In this document: in pieces, positions 3,697-36,781 of the stretch
Layout of the letters: each line of letters opens with the position of its first letter
Numbering within the stretch: the first letter of the stretch is position 1
Virus record (IMG/VR): IMGVR_UViG_3300008116_000471
Span: 1 to 38,505 of that record
DNA from: a virus
DNA: 38,505 bases
Strand: one strand, 5' to 3'
Notes under the pieces: generated by a model
Told to the model about the DNA's origin: nothing
Seen by the model: the letters and a program-made list of their open reading frames with translations, nothing else
Database searches by the model: none
Program-made: the position numbers and the translations under genes

Positions 3697-4680
3697 ATGT
3701 CTATTCAATACCTCAAAACAAACATCAATGGTCAATTTGTAAGGCCACGAGGATTTACATTTCCAACTGGTTTAACCAGTTTTGCTATAGCAAATACAAC
3801 AGTAGATTATCTTGTAGTTGCTGGTGGTGGCGGCGGTAATGGTGGATTCGCTGGAGCTGGTGGTGCTGGAGGATTTCGCCAAGGATCTAATTTTCCTGTT
3901 ATTGCATCTACTCCTTATAGCATTCTTGTTGGTGGCGGAGGTCCTGGCATTGACGGAACTCCAGCCGTTTCAGCAAAAGGATCAAATTCTTCTTTTAGCA
4001 CAATAATAAGTGAGGGTGGAGGTGGAGGTGGTGGAGCTACAGGAGGTTCACAAAATGCGCCTGGCAGTTCTGGCGGCTCTGGTGGTGGTTCAGGAGGAGA
4101 TAGTTCTACCGTAGGCGGATTAGCTAACACTTCTGTTCCTCAAGGAAGTAATGGTTCTTTTACTAGCGGTTCAACTGGAGGAGCTGGAGGTGGAGCAGGA
4201 GCTGTAGGTGGAACTCCTGTTACTGGTAAAGGAGGAATTGGGTCTACCAATTCTTTTTTAAACACTACTCAAGCTACTACATTATCAGTAGGTCAAGTTT
4301 CTGGTCCACTTGTATATTATTCAGGAGGTGGTTCTGGTGCTACTGCTGGTGACAATCCTGCCTATTCATCACCAGGATTAAGTGGTGGTTTAGGCGGCGG
4401 CGGCACTGGTGCAAAATCGCCTGCGGGAGGTGGTCCTGGAGGAAATAATACTGGTGGAGGTGGTGGCGCTACATTCGGATATGTTGAAGGAGCTGGTGCT
4501 GGAGGAGGTAAAGGTGTTGTGATTATTCGTTATTTTGGTAGTCAAGCTGCAACTGGAGGAGCAAATGTAACTTCTTCTGGCGGTTATACTGTTCATACAT
4601 TTACTGGTGATGGTACTTTTGCTACAAACTCAAACTTTGGTCTTTTAGAATCTGCTACAACTAACTATTTTATCAACTAA
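3697..4680 (+). CDS. Glycine-rich tail-fibre adhesin-like protein
   Basis: This 327-residue paralogue of the adhesins at 2-469 and 2326-3291 has an N-terminal head MSIQYLKTNINGQFVRPRG, an entry motif YLVVAGGGGGNGG and a long poly-Gly/Ser domain. The exit strand is GVVIIRYFG and the cap GYTVHTFTGDGTFATNSNF is nearly the same as in the truncated protein at the window's left end. No ribosome binding site is obvious before the ATG. A CTAAATA sequence at 3684-3690 is too close to the start to serve as its late promoter. It probably determines host-receptor specificity (inference). Confidence 0.75.
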   Translation: MSIQYLKTNINGQFVRPRGFTFPTGLTSFAIANTTVDYLVVAGGGGGNGGFAGAGGAGGFRQGSNFPVIASTPYSILVGGGGPGIDGTPAVSAKGSNSSFSTIISEGGGGGGGATGGSQNAPGSSGGSGGGSGGDSSTVGGLANTSVPQGSNGSFTSGSTGGAGGGAGAVGGTPVTGKGGIGSTNSFLNTTQATTLSVGQVSGPLVYYSGGGSGATAGDNPAYSSPGLSGGLGGGGTGAKSPAGGGPGGNNTGGGGGATFGYVEGAGAGGGKGVVIIRYFGSQAATGGANVTSSGGYTVHTFTGDGTFATNSNFGLLESATTNYFIN

Positions 4681-4683
4681 ATA
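4676..4683 (+). promoter_or_regulatory. Late promoter, ACTAAATA
   Basis: This CTAAATA-type variant of the T4 late promoter spans the stop codon of the adhesin gene and lies 32 bases before the oxygenase ATG. The same ACTAAATA octamer occurs before the genes at 5401, 22076 and 30094. Confidence 0.5.
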
Positions 4684-4715: not shown

Positions 4716-5342
4716 ATGAATCCACAATTTACCATTAATGGTGTTTTTCCAACACCGGTCATCTTTTCAAATATTGGTCGTTCTTGGACCGAAAAAGAAA
4801 TAACTCTCTTTAATTACCACAGAGATTTCACTCATAACAATCAAGGTAATACAACATCCAATGACCGATATGTTCTCAATGCTCCTGAATCCAAAGGGCT
4901 CCTAGAATATATTGGCAAAGGTATTCAGTATTATGTTGACAATATAATTTGCCCAAAAAATCCTGTTGAGTTTTACATTACACAATCTTGGTTAAATTAT
5001 ACCAAACCAGGCGAATATCATCACACCCATGAGCATCCCAATTCAATTATTTCTGGTGTTCTTTACATTGATTGTGACCGTGAGCATGATAAGATAATTT
5101 TTCATAGAGCCAATCGGTATCAACAAATCAAATTTCCTCAAACAGAATTTAATCACTTTAATTCTGAATCTTGGTTTTTCAATGTAGGCACAGGAGACCT
5201 AGTTCTTTTTCCATCACATTTTACACATGGAGTGGAACAGAAAAAAGGTGACAACATTCGGTGCTCTTTGGCATTCAATGTGTTTGCCAAAGGTTACATT
5301 GGGCAAGAAGAAGAACTCACAGCCCTCCATCTTCGTATGTAA
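4716..5342 (+). CDS. 2OG-Fe(II) oxygenase-like protein (TIGR02466-type)
   Basis: This 208-residue protein has a double-stranded beta-helix oxygenase pattern. YHHTHEHPNSIISGVLYI (about residues 101-118) supplies the H105-x-H107 metal ligands, and LFPSHFTHGVE supplies the distal His171. Arg182 in NIRCSLAFN is placed to bind the 2-oxoglutarate carboxylate. The H-P-N-S-x-x-S-G signature is typical of the putative oxygenases widespread in marine T4-like phages. The substrate is unknown. It has GAGG upstream and a late promoter, and lies among fibre genes, so it is expressed with virion proteins. It may hydroxylate a virion or host component (inference). Confidence 0.75.
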   Translation: MNPQFTINGVFPTPVIFSNIGRSWTEKEITLFNYHRDFTHNNQGNTTSNDRYVLNAPESKGLLEYIGKGIQYYVDNIICPKNPVEFYITQSWLNYTKPGEYHHTHEHPNSIISGVLYIDCDREHDKIIFHRANRYQQIKFPQTEFNHFNSESWFFNVGTGDLVLFPSHFTHGVEQKKGDNIRCSLAFNVFAKGYIGQEEELTALHLRM

Positions 5343-5353
5343 TTGCCTCTTAA

Positions 5354-5393
5354 CTCCCGTTTTGACTAAATAGACGATAAGTTAAAACGGGAG
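5354..5393 (+). promoter_or_regulatory. 13-bp hairpin hiding a ribosome binding site, with a late promoter at its apex
   Basis: Bases 5354-5366 pair with 5381-5393 over 13 bp: CTCCCGTTTT against AAAACGGGAG, one G-U, then AC/GT. The right arm contains the GGGAG ribosome binding site of the next gene. The late promoter CTAAATA (5366-5372) begins at the apex, so late transcripts should start near the end of the loop and lack the left arm. No T-run follows, arguing against a terminator. T4 genes e, soc and 49 are known to use this scheme to block translation from early readthrough RNA. Confidence 0.65.
5365..5372 (+). promoter_or_regulatory. Late promoter, ACTAAATA
   Basis: This late promoter octamer lies at the top of the hairpin 5354-5393 and 28 bases before the ATC start at 5401. 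It is identical to the octamers upstream of 4716, 22076 and 30094. Confidence 0.55.
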
Positions 5394-5400
5394 AATCAAA

Positions 5401-5733
5401 ATCGCAGCTTATACGGAATTAGTGGTAGAGCAATATGCTTCTTTTTCCACTACTGTCAATGTAGAAGATTCAAACGGAGATGCCATAAATCTTTCTGGTT
5501 ACACGGCAGCTTCGCAGATTCGTAAGTCGTATTATTCTTCCATCGCAAATAGTTTTACTACAACCATTACTGGCATAGCAAATGGTGAAATTACTTTAGC
5601 TATGACGGCGGCAAATACCGCACTTTTAACACCTGGTCGCTCTCTATTTGATTTGGTTATTACTGCACCAAATGGAACAAAAACGAGAGTAGTTGAAGGA
5701 ATTGTTACTATTACTCCAGGAGTAACGCAGTAA
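5401..5733 (+). CDS. Conserved phage structural protein with apparent ATC start
   Basis: This protein has 110 residues if started at ATC 5401, or 103 from GTG 5422. The ribosome binding site GGGAG (5389-5393) is seven bases from the ATC but 28 from the GTG. The residues between (AAYTELVVEQ) match the usual family N-terminus of the form MATYKELVVEQ. No ATG, GTG or TTG lies between the upstream in-frame stop (5383) and 5422. The rest reads as a small beta protein with QIRKSYYSS and an ending RVVEGIVTITPGVTQ, a family found next to fibre genes in T4-like marine phages. Function is unknown. The next gene overlaps the stop by one base. Confidence 0.7.
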   Translation: MAAYTELVVEQYASFSTTVNVEDSNGDAINLSGYTAASQIRKSYYSSIANSFTTTITGIANGEITLAMTAANTALLTPGRSLFDLVITAPNGTKTRVVEGIVTITPGVTQ

Positions 5734-25642: not shown

Positions 25643-25667
25643 GTAATAATTATAGGAGAAACTTAAA
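25638..25667 (+). promoter_or_regulatory. Hairpin presenting the gp23 ribosome binding site in its loop
   Basis: TTTAAGT (25638-25644), overlapping the end of gp22, can pair with ACTTAAA (25661-25667), which runs into the ATG. The ribosome binding site AGGAG (25653-25657) would lie in the loop. All seven pairs but two are A-U, so stability is modest. Confidence 0.35.
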
Positions 25668-26539
25668 TGTATTTGTCCGAACAACTACAAAAGAAATGGG
25701 AAGGCGTTCTGGATCATCCGGATCTGCCAAAGATTTCTGACCCATATCGTAAAGCCGTTACGGCTGTTATCCTTGAGAATCAAGCTCAAGAGATGACCAA
25801 GGCTACCGAGATCCTGAGTGAGACCGGTTCGCCAACAAACTTTGCTGGTACAGGTGGTTTTGGTGGCGGCGCAGCTGCTGCTGGTCCTGTTGCCGGTTTT
25901 GACCCGATCCTGATTTCGCTGGTTCGCCGTTCGCTGCCAAACCTCATTGCTTATGATGTTTGCGGTGTTCAGCCAATGACTGGCCCAACAGGTCTTATTT
26001 TCGCAATGCGTTCCCGTTACAGCTCACAAGGCGGTACAGAGGCATTCTACAATGAGGCTAACACTCAATTTGGTGGTGCTAACACTGCTCTCGCAGCTGC
26101 AATTCAAAATCAATTGACCGCTCTGGCAATTGCTGCTAACACAACTGAAACCTTTGTTTCTAACGCTGCACCAGGTGCTGCAATGACCACAGGTTCGGCT
26201 GAAGCTCTTGGTGACGGCGCTGCAGGTAACACATTCCAAGAAATGGCATTCTCTATTGAGAAAGTTACCGTTACGGCTAAGACCCGTGCTCTGAAGGCTG
26301 AGTATTCTATGGAACTGGCACAAGACCTGAAAGCAGTTCATGGTCTGGATTTCGTACCATCTACGGTGTTGCTAAACTTGGCGCACAAGTCGGCACGACA
26401 ACTCGTGGTACATTTGACCTTGACACCGATTCTAACGGTCGCTGGATGGTTGAAAAAGTTAAAGGTCTGGCTTTCCAGATTGAGCGTGAAGCTAACACCA
26501 TCGCCAAAACGACTCGTAGAGGCAAAGGTAACATTATGA
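25667..26539 (+). CDS. gp23: Major capsid protein gp23, N-terminal part before a frame break
   Basis: The first about 228 residues are a normal T4-type major capsid precursor. They include a propeptide with the gp21-type site ILSE (residues 49-52), DPILISLVRRSLPNLIAYDV, CGVQPMTGPTGLIFAMRSRY and a conserved EYSMELAQDLKAVHGLD. After that Asp (codon at 26348) the frame is wrong and runs into unrelated sequence ending at 26539. The family normally continues with about 22 residues of the type AETELANIL...EINREVV and then RTIYGVAK, and that latter part is found in another frame at 26353. About 64 bases are therefore absent. The capsid protein is essential, so this is a defect or an assembly error. 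Confidence 0.88.
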   Translation: MYLSEQLQKKWEGVLDHPDLPKISDPYRKAVTAVILENQAQEMTKATEILSETGSPTNFAGTGGFGGGAAAAGPVAGFDPILISLVRRSLPNLIAYDVCGVQPMTGPTGLIFAMRSRYSSQGGTEAFYNEANTQFGGANTALAAAIQNQLTALAIAANTTETFVSNAAPGAAMTTGSAEALGDGAAGNTFQEMAFSIEKVTVTAKTRALKAEYSMELAQDLKAVHGLDFVPSTVLLNLAHKSARQLVVHLTLTPILTVAGWLKKLKVWLSRLSVKLTPSPKRLVEAKVTL

Positions 26540-26961
26540 TTTGTTCGTCTGATGTTGCTTCTGCTCTCGCAATGGCAGGCATTCTGGACTATCAATCGGC
26601 TCTGCAAGGCCAAGTTAACCTGACAGTTGACGATACTGGCAACACATTTGCTGGTACTCTGTTCGGCCGTATCAAGGTTTACATTGACCCGTATTTCCCG
26701 GCTGGTTCTACAAACGAATTCGCAGTTGTTGGTTACAAAGGTTCCAACGCCTATGACGCAGGTATCTTCTACTGCCCATATGTTCCGCTGCAAATGGTTC
26801 GTGCTGTTGATACTGGCACCTTCCAGCCAAAGATTGGCTTCAAAACTCGTTACGGCCTCGTTGCTAACCCGTTTGCTCAGGGTACCGACCAAGGTCTTGG
26901 CGCTTTGACAGCACAATCCAACAACTACTATCGTGGTTTTGCAATCAAGAACCTGATGTAA
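26353..26961 (+). CDS. gp23: Major capsid protein gp23, C-terminal part after the frame break
   Basis: This frame is open from 26353 (RTIYGVAKLGAQVG) to the stop; the first ATG at 26446 is internal, so it has no start of its own. It carries the conserved second half of gp23: TFDLDTDSNGRWMVEKVKGL, FQIEREANTIAKTTRRGKGN, ALAMAGILDYQSAL, FAGTLFGRIKVYIDPYF, YKGSNAYDAGIFYCPYVPLQ and FQPKIGFKTRYGLVANPF. With the missing segment restored, the protein would have about 453 residues, a usual size for marine T4-like gp23. A strong terminator follows. Confidence 0.88.
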   Translation, partial: RTIYGVAKLGAQVGTTTRGTFDLDTDSNGRWMVEKVKGLAFQIEREANTIAKTTRRGKGNIMICSSDVASALAMAGILDYQSALQGQVNLTVDDTGNTFAGTLFGRIKVYIDPYFPAGSTNEFAVVGYKGSNAYDAGIFYCPYVPLQMVRAVDTGTFQPKIGFKTRYGLVANPFAQGTDQGLGALTAQSNNYYRGFAIKNLM

Positions 26962-27864: not shown

Positions 27865-28767
27865 ATGAAAAATCTGGATGAAGTGTTAGAAGAATGGCGT
27901 AAAGATTCCGACATTGACCGTACCGAACCAGGTAAGGCATTGTTAGATATACCAAAACTTCACAGCAAATACCTAAATGTTTTATCCCAACATCGTATGC
28001 TTGCCAAGCAAGCAGAATTCAACTATAATAAATGGAAAAAGATTAAGTGGGAGTATTACACAGGTAAGTTAGATGATGATGAATTACAGAAATACGGATG
28101 GGAACCATTTCCGTTTGTAATTAAATCTGACCTATCTACATATTTGGAAAGTGATGAAGATTTAAACAAGTATATGGCTAAAAAAGCCATACATGAAGAA
28201 ATAGTGGAAGTTTGCTTAGCAATTATGAAAGAGCTAAATAGTAGGACATATCAGTTAAGGTCATGGATTGATTGGGAAAATTTATACAAGGTGTTTGATT
28301 TAGTATTACATAAAAAGAATGAAGCGTTTATACAGTTTGAATGTGAAAGAAGTATAGCACAAGAACTGTCGGACTACTTTACATTTTTTGTTCCAGGTTA
28401 TCAATTTACTCCTGCATACAAGAGCCGTATATGGGATGGTCGCATAAGGCTCGCAGATTTACGAACATTTACCATATATCATGGTCTTATTCCTTACATA
28501 GAAAAATTTTGTGCCGAAAGAAATTATAGCTTAGAGATTGCTGATGCTATCAAGCTTACACAAGAATTCTCAGGTGTTGAGGCATTAGAGTTTGTAAAGA
28601 CCTTAAATTTGCCACATGAATTGCGTGAGTATCAATGGAAAAGTTTTCTTCAGGCTGTTCGCAATAAACGCCAACTCATACTATCACCAACTGCATCAGG
28701 TAAATCACTTATCATTTATTTGATTGTTCGTTGGCTACAAGAAGCTGATTTCAAAACAAATGTATAG
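27865..28767 (+). CDS. uvsY: UvsY recombination mediator fused in frame to the N-terminal part of UvsW
   Basis: The start is set by the promoter at 27813 and AGGAGGT eight bases before the ATG. Residues 1 to about 138 resemble UvsY (T4: 137), the loader of UvsX recombinase, with YNKWKKIKWEYYTGKLDDDE and a C-terminal WIDWEN. The frame then runs on into UvsW: FECERSIAQELSDYFTFFVP, YKSRIWDGRIRLADLR and Walker A SPTASGKS, before stopping at 28767. Adding one T in 28281-28283 would give the expected UvsY ending WIDWENFIQGV with TGA at 28296, and UvsW could start at GTG 28291. Natural fusion or one-base loss are both possible. Confidence 0.8.
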   Translation: MKNLDEVLEEWRKDSDIDRTEPGKALLDIPKLHSKYLNVLSQHRMLAKQAEFNYNKWKKIKWEYYTGKLDDDELQKYGWEPFPFVIKSDLSTYLESDEDLNKYMAKKAIHEEIVEVCLAIMKELNSRTYQLRSWIDWENLYKVFDLVLHKKNEAFIQFECERSIAQELSDYFTFFVPGYQFTPAYKSRIWDGRIRLADLRTFTIYHGLIPYIEKFCAERNYSLEIADAIKLTQEFSGVEALEFVKTLNLPHELREYQWKSFLQAVRNKRQLILSPTASGKSLIIYLIVRWLQEADFKTNV

Positions 28768-29728
28768 TGACTTTGCTTCATATGGTTATGATTCAGACAA
28801 ATACTGTCACCGCCAATACTCTGGTAAAGAGAAACACACAAACAAATTTCTTACCATAACCACATGGCAATCAATTTATAAAAATGAAAAAGATTATTTT
28901 GAACAATTTGATTATGTATTAGGTGATGAAGCACACCAGTTTAAAGCCAAATCACTTACAACGATTCTATCTGGTTGCACAAACGCTAAATATAGAATAG
29001 GTACCACAGGAACATTAGACGGTACACAAACACATCGCCTTGTATTAGAAGGTTTGTTTGGACCAGTTTATAAGGCAACGACCACCTCAGAATTAATTGA
29101 GAAAGGTCAATTAGCAGATTTCAATATTAAATGCCTTGTGTTGAAGTATCCTGACCCACTTTGTAAAATGGCTCGTGATTGGGATTACAATACAGAAATG
29201 GACTTTATCGTGCAAAATAAAGCACGAAACGAATTTATTAAAAACTTGGTGTTGTCATTAGAAGGCAATACACTTATATTATTTCAATTTGTGGAGAAAC
29301 ATGGAAAAGATTTACACAACATTATCAAAGCTGATGCTGGTAAGCGTCATGTATTTTTCGTATTTGGTGGTACAGATGTTGAGGTGCGGGAATCAGTTCG
29401 TTCAATTACTGAAAAGGAAAATGATGCTATCATTGTTGCTTCTTATGGCACTTTTAGCACTGGTGTCAATATCCGTAACCTTCACAATATTATATTTGCC
29501 AGTCCATCCAAATCCCGCATCCGTAATCTTCAGTCAATAGGTCGTGGTTTAAGAATTGGTGATAACAAAACACAAGCAACACTTTTTGATATTGCAGATG
29601 ATTTTCGTGTTGGTAAATTTGTTAATTATACACTCAAGCATTTTATTGAAAGAGTTAAGATATACGATGAAGAAAAGTTCAACTATAAATTTTACAACAT
29701 AGAGCTTAAAAATGCAAACAACACCTAA
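28757..29728 (+). CDS. uvsW: UvsW helicase, C-terminal part after a deletion
   Basis: This frame continues the UvsW SF2 helicase from QMYSDFASYG. It contains the TTWQS motif, DEAH box (GDEAHQF), GTTGTLDG (motif III region), ILFQFVEKHGK (motif IV), VASYGTFSTGVNIRNLHNII (motif V) and QSIGRGLRIGD (motif VI). The segment joining it to the Walker A half, normally LLIVPTTSLV (motif Ia), is absent, and the two halves are out of frame. UvsW unwinds branched DNA and R-loops. The next gene overlaps its 3' end by 17 bases. Confidence 0.82.
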   Translation, partial: QMYSDFASYGYDSDKYCHRQYSGKEKHTNKFLTITTWQSIYKNEKDYFEQFDYVLGDEAHQFKAKSLTTILSGCTNAKYRIGTTGTLDGTQTHRLVLEGLFGPVYKATTTSELIEKGQLADFNIKCLVLKYPDPLCKMARDWDYNTEMDFIVQNKARNEFIKNLVLSLEGNTLILFQFVEKHGKDLHNIIKADAGKRHVFFVFGGTDVEVRESVRSITEKENDAIIVASYGTFSTGVNIRNLHNIIFASPSKSRIRNLQSIGRGLRIGDNKTQATLFDIADDFRVGKFVNYTLKHFIERVKIYDEEKFNYKFYNIELKNANNT

Positions 29729-35813: not shown

Positions 35814-36255
35814 ATATAACCGCTTGCTTTTAAATAAGGCTTGTGTTATAATTACCAAACACTTAACACCAGACCTTTTACCTAAGAAATGGGTGGAAAG
35901 AAACTCTATGAACCCTATGTTTGGTCATTGTCATACCGCTTCTGCTTGTTTACAGAAATTGTTTGGCAGTCAAAACATTAAATTGTATAGAGCATTAGAT
36001 GATGAAGGTATTTGGCACTGGTGGGCAGTAACAAAAGAAAAGGAAATAATTGACATTACGGCGGATCAATACTACTCACAACAAAGAACACCTCCTTATG
36101 GTACAGGAGAAAAAGCTTCTATGTTAGGATTTGATTATAGAAAAAGAGTTTTAAAGCTCCTGGATATAGTTAGTAAAGAATTACTTGCAACCGGAACACC
36201 GCCATTATCTCATGTGTCAAGCGTAAAAAGAGGCAAAGATGACAAAAGCAACTAA
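35800..36255 (+). CDS. Conserved phage protein with Cys-His-Asp pattern
   Basis: This 151-residue protein has ITKHLTPDLLPKKW near its N-terminus, NPMFGHCHTASACLQKLFG (Cys44), GIWHWWAVT (His73) and EIIDITADQYYS (Asp85), and ends in a basic tail. A family with NPMxGHCYVAS and HWFL/LDxTAxQF motifs is common in marine T4-like phages with no proven function. The Cys/His/Asp order resembles papain-like or NlpC/P60-type enzymes, but that is inference. A sigma70-type promoter lies inside its 5' end. It overlaps gp55 by 17 bases. Confidence 0.65.
   Translation: MEMFEYNRLLLNKACVIITKHLTPDLLPKKWVERNSMNPMFGHCHTASACLQKLFGSQNIKLYRALDDEGIWHWWAVTKEKEIIDITADQYYSQQRTPPYGTGEKASMLGFDYRKRVLKLLDIVSKELLATGTPPLSHVSSVKRGKDDKSN
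35824..35852 (+). promoter_or_regulatory. Sigma70-type extended -10 promoter, copy 1 of shared motif
   Basis: TTGCTT (35824-35829), a 17-base spacer and consensus TATAAT (35847-35852) with TGT directly before it. The pattern GCTTGCTT-N11-TTGTGTTAYAAT recurs at 36785-36815. It would transcribe gp55 and the genes after it. Confidence 0.75.
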
Positions 36256-36781
36256 ACATTATGTGAATAACGCCGATTTTCTGGCTGCGTTAATTGAATA
36301 CAAAAAGGCTTGTGATGAGGCCAAAAAGAAAAACAAACCAGATCCACAAATACCAAATTACATTGGAGAGTGTTTTCTAAAGATTGCAGACCATCTATCA
36401 CGCAAGCCAAATTTCATATCATATTCTTTCCGTGATGAAATGATTGCAGATGGCATTGAAAACTGCCTTATGTATTTTCGTAACTTTGACCCCGATAAGT
36501 CCAAGAATCCATTTGCCTACTTTACACAGATTATTTACTATGCCTTTCTTCGCCGCATTATGAAAGAGAAGAAACAATTATATGTTAAGTATAAGGCAAC
36601 AGAACAGTTTGGCATATTAGACGAGTTTGAAATGTATGAAGATTCGGATGGTAATATGAGGCCATTTGAATTGTATGAAAACATTTCCGAGTTTATTTAC
36701 AATTTTGAAGAAAATAAACGCAAGAAAAAAGAAGGCAAAACAAAAGGATTAGAAAAGTTTTTAGAAGAAGATTTGCCTTGA
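36239..36781 (+). CDS. gp55: Late sigma factor gp55
   Basis: This 180-residue protein (T4 gp55: 185) has a start like T4's (HYVNNADFLAALIEYKKACD). FISYSFRDEMIADGIENCLM, then FDPDKSKNPFAYFTQIIYYA, FLRRIMKEKKQLYVKY and a short C-terminus are the usual gp55 sigma region 2-like elements. The protein recruits RNA polymerase to TATAAATA promoters, many of which are seen in this window. Its stop overlaps the putative TTG start of a tiny lipoprotein gene by two bases. Confidence 0.93.
   Translation: MTKATKHYVNNADFLAALIEYKKACDEAKKKNKPDPQIPNYIGECFLKIADHLSRKPNFISYSFRDEMIADGIENCLMYFRNFDPDKSKNPFAYFTQIIYYAFLRRIMKEKKQLYVKYKATEQFGILDEFEMYEDSDGNMRPFELYENISEFIYNFEENKRKKKEGKTKGLEKFLEEDLP

Follow-up and report, generated by a model that had tools for sequence, protein, structure and literature searches.

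Probable coupling of a tail-fibre attachment gene to its own late promoter by a Shine-Dalgarno-covering hairpin in an uncultured T4-like phage

The window analysed here, 38,505 nucleotides of IMG/VR record IMGVR_UViG_3300008116_000471, is a strand-coherent stretch of a T4-like phage, and homologs of neck, sheath, tube, portal, protease, capsid, UvsY, UvsW, gp55, gp47 and gp46 were found on its + strand. The genes upstream of the locus under study look structural or late and are themselves preceded by late-type promoters. Two genes, those for the major capsid protein (25667-26961) and UvsW (about 28285-29722), are broken into two frames apiece and lack residues 229-249 of the capsid protein and 174-183 of UvsW, numbered on the relative; these frame breaks are probably assembly errors in the contig. 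Despite these breaks elsewhere in the window, the leader described below was itself confirmed by relatives. The features are as follows.

4677-4683, + strand: CTAAATA late-promoter-like site at the end of the gene preceding the oxygenase gene (motif; promoter survey)
4716-5342, + strand: upstream 2OG-Fe(II) oxygenase gene (PF13759, E 7e-22; phrog_81)
5354-5367, + strand: left arm of the hairpin, the putative masking strand, CTCCCGTTTTGACT (sequence, fold, inverted-repeat scan, covariation)
5366-5372, + strand: putative late promoter CTAAATA, Aeh1-type, -12 to -6 (position, homologs, PMC1524935)
5378-5380, + strand: predicted start of the late transcript (-12 rule, PMC1524935)
5380-5393, + strand: right arm of the hairpin, AGTTAAAACGGGAG (fold, inverted-repeat scan, covariation)
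5389-5393, + strand: Shine-Dalgarno (SD) sequence GGGAG, wholly paired in the predicted fold of read-through RNA
5401-5403, + strand: probable ATC start codon, 7 nt past the SD, with an in-frame TAA upstream (5383-5385)
5401-5733, + strand: gene for a tail-fibre attachment/assembly protein of 110 aa (phrog_1084/phrog_3304; profile match to T5 p132)
36236-36628, + strand: matched part of a gp55-type late sigma factor gene (63% identity to the HTVC008M late sigma factor)

The protein encoded at 5401-5733 matched phrog_3304 in a profile search with an E value of 5e-20. The family profile matched the T5 L-shaped tail fibre protein p132 (7qg9) with an E value of 0.003 and the L-shaped tail fibre assembly chain 8hqz with an E value of 5e-5. 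LtfC (PF23926) was matched in four of ten family members, and the window member was without a match. In tblastn and profile searches the 110-aa product grouped with proteins annotated for L-shaped tail fibre assembly in cyanophages, pelagiphages and Methylophilales phages.

No ATG, GTG or TTG was found between the in-frame TAA and the conserved N-terminus, and all homolog alignments start at window position 5401. At the same place in the 60 near relatives, the start codon is ATC in 13 (the window and 12 others: L008, L025, L036, L038, L048, L055, L057, L060, L190, L194, L195 and L196), ATA in two (L032 and L035) and ATT in one (L125). Each of these relatives has an SD 6-8 nt upstream of the start, and in at least six of them the next canonical start is found only at codon 66-68. 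Non-ATG starts of any kind occur in 49 of the 60. Because the alignments begin at 5401, no canonical start is available and ATC, ATA or ATT recurs together with an SD, it is very likely that the gene initiates at AUC. GTG 5422, the first start listed for the open reading frame, was replaced by ATC 5401-5403. Gene callers would misplace the start of the tail-fibre attachment gene or miss its N-terminus.

The sequence-only reading had described a 13-bp inverted repeat before this gene. The repeat is real, but its arms form 14 pairs, one of them a G-U wobble (G5364-U5383), around a 12-nt loop (5368-5379). When both strands of the whole window were scanned for stems with 13 or more pairs, no more than one G-U and a loop no longer than 20, this was the sole stem found, and ten block-shuffled windows contained none. 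The folding z-score of a 121-nt region with the hairpin was -4.2, and none of 200 shuffles folded as well. GGGAG lies entirely inside the right arm, and CTAAATA straddles the border of the left arm, covering its final two nucleotides and then extending into the loop, both as had been read from the sequence. The arrangement of hairpin, late promoter and SD at 5354-5393 is thus confirmed.

For phage Aeh1, CTAAATA has been reported as the consensus of late promoters, beginning at -12 (PMC1524935; for the consensus, also PMC2988020). By this rule the late RNA would have its 5' end at 5378, downstream of the left arm, which ends at 5367, and this agrees with the earlier proposal that such an RNA contains the right arm only. 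Any transcript start from 5368 onward excludes the entire left arm. CTAAATA was not enriched in the window (11 seen vs 8.8 expected), and matches to sigma-70-like promoters were at chance level. We regard the motif as a promoter because of its position, its conservation before this and other genes and its strand bias, not because of counts in the window. Nearly every homolog, whether close or distant, has [CA]TAAATA upstream of the tail-fibre attachment gene, and in the window and three related genomes the motif also precedes the genes for tail sheath, tail tube and scaffold, among others. The coding-strand bias of CTAAATA was 12:1, 18:2 and 19:1 in the longer relatives. On the non-coding strand of G001-G003, CTAAATA is nearly absent (1-2 copies per 80-158 kb vs 7-20 for a reversed control), a pattern as though antisense late promoters were selected against. 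The gp55-type factor at 36236-36628 is the one expected to read CTAAATA; it was located via the HTVC008M record, and phrog_226, a family guessed to be the late sigma factor, gave no match. Homologs of the gp45 clamp are present in relatives.

Folding predictions were made for RNAs with and without the left arm. Read-through RNA was folded at three lengths, and in each the probability that the five SD bases were paired was at least 0.99 (unpaired 0.00). In late RNA starting at 5375-5381 the predicted SD accessibility was about 0.5 on average, so that in the model the SD is about half open, and the AUC codon is partly paired. The contrast expected by the earlier reading, in which the helix holds the SD of read-through RNA but not that of late RNA, was therefore borne out by the predictions. 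Nearly all hairpin-bearing relatives showed the same predicted contrast as the window, whereas in hairpin-less relatives the SD was similarly open in both RNAs.

A survey of late promoters in four genomes, namely the window and three related genomes of 80, 120 and 158 kb, served as an unbiased control. Among 40-odd [CA]TAAATA sites followed by an SD and an open reading frame, a significant stem masking the SD was found at four, all of them before the tail-fibre attachment gene. Sites outside the family with strong promoter-centred stems were excluded as a control, as these loci had mostly been picked by the same pattern. A separate hairpin of 14-15 pairs was seen near position 5253 of the reverse complement of L114, with CTAAATA in its loop, masking the SD of a small open reading frame (MQCKFCGREGLSLNSNIQHE...) that adjoins or overlaps a tRNA-Asn gene. 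By eye this frame is possibly zinc-finger/HNH-like, and its hairpin resembles the masking seen at homing endonuclease genes of T4 and Aeh1, unless it is just a tRNA arm. At the locus under study, the oxygenase stop codon (5340-5342) sits 11 nt before the hairpin. In relatives the hairpin follows a wide range of unrelated upstream genes (oxygenase, glycine-rich protein and others), and since the upstream genes vary in this way, the hairpin belongs to the downstream gene.

Homologs were taken from IMG/VR by protein and by leader pattern, and 25 of 60 non-redundant relatives were hairpin-bearing by score. Covariation was analysed in 20 distinct sites, four of them with partial pairing only. The arms were aligned in register after removal of the variable loop, because MAFFT alignment of whole leaders placed the SD wrongly in three rows. 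Relative to the promoter the left arm stays in one register, as does the right arm relative to the SD, and the loop alone varies. Paired cells made up 91.5% of the total, compared with 84.9% in shuffled sets; 14 cells were changed on both sides, compared with 5.4 in shuffles, and the covariation score was 0.283, compared with 0.168. None of 500 shuffles matched any of these values. The shuffle counts make no correction for relatedness, but on the protein tree the changes belong to three or more separate lineages. When the partner was slid by 1-3 nt, pairing fell to 47-66% (60-66% by one base).

Individual pairs show the same behaviour. Pair 8-30 was seen as G-C, A-U, C-G and G-U, and pair 7-31 as C-G, U-A and U-G. 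The paired arms are CTCCCAGTTTG/CAAATTGGGAG in L020 and L023, CTCCTGTTT/AAACAGGAG in L055 and CTCCTCTTT/AAAGAGGAG in L122, the protein of which is only 41% identical. Over 10 pairs, the non-Watson-Crick changes comprised about 17 G-U and 2 A-C, both of the latter in the non-hairpin row L008, and because G-U changes so outnumber A-C, the pairing molecule appears to be the + strand RNA. The alignment of related phages suggested by the sequence-only reading thus revealed compensatory and wobble changes in the arms. The losses and uncompensated changes that it had named as counter-evidence were seen at the edges only: in L008 (82% identical protein) the leader has been replaced and is without the hairpin, and of the two outermost pairs in L019, L024 and L025, one is unpaired and the other is a U-G. 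On this comparative evidence, the helix is under selection.

No comparable hairpin was found in the cultured relatives checked, and the hairpin is absent from most distant homologs. Given these absences and that in L008, the hairpin is not essential to the gene. Two distant homologs, L210 and L220, have unrelated stems of their own around TATAAATA, which cover the purine-rich SD region (CCCCTTATAAATATTCCTTATAGGGG; CCCTCAGCTTATAAATAAAGAAGTAAACTGAGGG) and are possibly independent gains.

We propose, with good confidence, a cis-acting RNA switch that makes translation of the tail-fibre attachment gene dependent on its own late promoter. RNA initiated upstream would carry both arms and form the 14-pair hairpin, which would bury GGGAG so that ribosomes could not start. 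A late polymerase with the gp55-type factor at CTAAATA would produce RNA from about 5378 in which the left arm is missing and the SD is free. Because AUC is a weak start, initiation would depend strongly on the SD, which should sharpen the switch. In this proposal we infer the transcript start, the block to translation and the identity of the read-through RNA. Masking of read-through RNA is, in our judgement, quite probably the function of the hairpin. Late read-through is at least as likely as early, given the structural look of the upstream genes and the late-type promoter at 4677, from which late RNA might run into the locus. A general insulator that guards the gene from upstream transcription, late read-through from sites such as 4677 included, seems to us more likely than a strict early-versus-late timer.

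The observations were weighed against other explanations of the hairpin. In one of them, to which we give slightly less than an even chance, the same masking stops translation of late polycistronic read-through RNA and takes the place of an upstream intrinsic terminator, so that it sets dosage and not timing. The structural appearance of the upstream genes and the late-type promoter at 4677 fit this, and the weak starts (49 of 60 near relatives without ATG) fit tuning to a low dose. In the leaders of near relatives, 20 had the hairpin only, 25 had only a terminator, which lies just upstream of the promoter, five had both and ten had neither; a terminator was thus present in 5 of 25 hairpin leaders vs 25 of 35 hairpin-less leaders (Fisher p about 0.0005). 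However, five leaders have both elements, the tree contains only four gains or losses of the hairpin, and tree-aware pairing gave no significance. The counts suggest an exchange of hairpin and terminator as a lead, not as a result. It is also conceivable, though very improbable, that the arms are a by-product of promoter and SD constraints, with a T-rich upstream part, an A-rich spacer and a GGGAG that is complementary by chance. TTTGACTAAATA and an A-rich spacer are indeed common in hairpin-less relatives as well, so the inner U-A pairs weigh little, but the outer CTCCC/GGGAG part has no such cause for its conservation. Other late promoters in the same genomes, which are under equal constraints, form no such stem, and the paired changes in the arms largely refute this origin.

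An element at the 3' end of the oxygenase gene, either a terminator or an RNA-stabilising hairpin, would suit the short distance of 11 nt between the stop codon and the stem. We consider it even less probable: the hairpin keeps with the downstream gene despite differing upstream genes, and several relatives additionally have a true terminator upstream. The stem was also considered as an intrinsic terminator and rejected, since the right arm at 5380-5393 is followed by AATCAAAATC and not by the U run that accompanies a GC stem in such elements; it has no T run and is absent from the list of the terminator scan. The least probable explanation is a DNA operator, in which a regulator of the late promoter would bind the inverted repeat as a dimer. 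Operators usually take the form of a palindrome around a promoter, but the many G-U and hardly any A-C changes keep RNA pairing and break DNA symmetry, and the arm spacing differs by 6 nt among relatives, unlike the operator of a fixed dimer.

Masking of read-through RNA by the hairpin therefore remains the preferred reading. One extension of it, which we offer as speculation and think rather unlikely, is a double lock on a single virion gene, in which the SD-masking hairpin, opened solely when transcription starts at the promoter within it, is combined with a near-cognate AUC, AUA or AUU start and is exchanged during evolution with an upstream terminator, the two being interchangeable insulators of a dosage-critical protein.

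If the proposal is correct, a switch of the T4 lysozyme type also operates on a tail-fibre gene in phages beyond the cultured T4 relatives, and selection on it is strong enough for paired changes to be seen. The locus would also be a compact, sequence-defined example of how T4-like phages insulate single genes within long co-directional late regions. In addition, the switch would be coupled to a non-canonical start of a rare kind, which recurs in the family and which standard gene callers would misplace.

The encoded protein has weak profile similarity to T5 p132 (7qg9), LtfC and BppU_N, and the regulation of these is unrelated. T5 is not known to have gp55-type late promoters. The nearest parallels are instead found in T4-like phages. 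In T4, RNA from upstream is masked at genes e, soc, 49 and I-TevI and the late RNA is not, and for gene e the masking was shown experimentally to be 100-fold (PMC3014915). As in those genes, the late promoter is within the 5' strand of a hairpin or beside it and the 3' strand contains the SD, whereas here the gene is one for tail-fibre attachment, the promoter is of the CTAAATA type, the start is AUC and the phages are uncultured. Masking at T4 e is known by experiment, and here it is predicted from sequence. Phage Aeh1 shares the CTAAATA consensus (PMC1524935), and according to its citation in PMC3014915, Aeh1 mobE also has an SD-sequestering hairpin in a T4-like phage, although mobE is a homing endonuclease gene and the gene here encodes a virion protein. 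The earlier reading knew of no such report for this gene family, and none was found in the open-access literature, the scope of the search. Its claim that the locus follows the logic of T4 e, soc and 49 is well supported by the promoter position, the predicted SD pairing, the gp55 homolog and the paired changes. Hence, sequence comparison gives good support to a known T4-type switch in a new place, before a T5 p132-like tail-fibre attachment gene.
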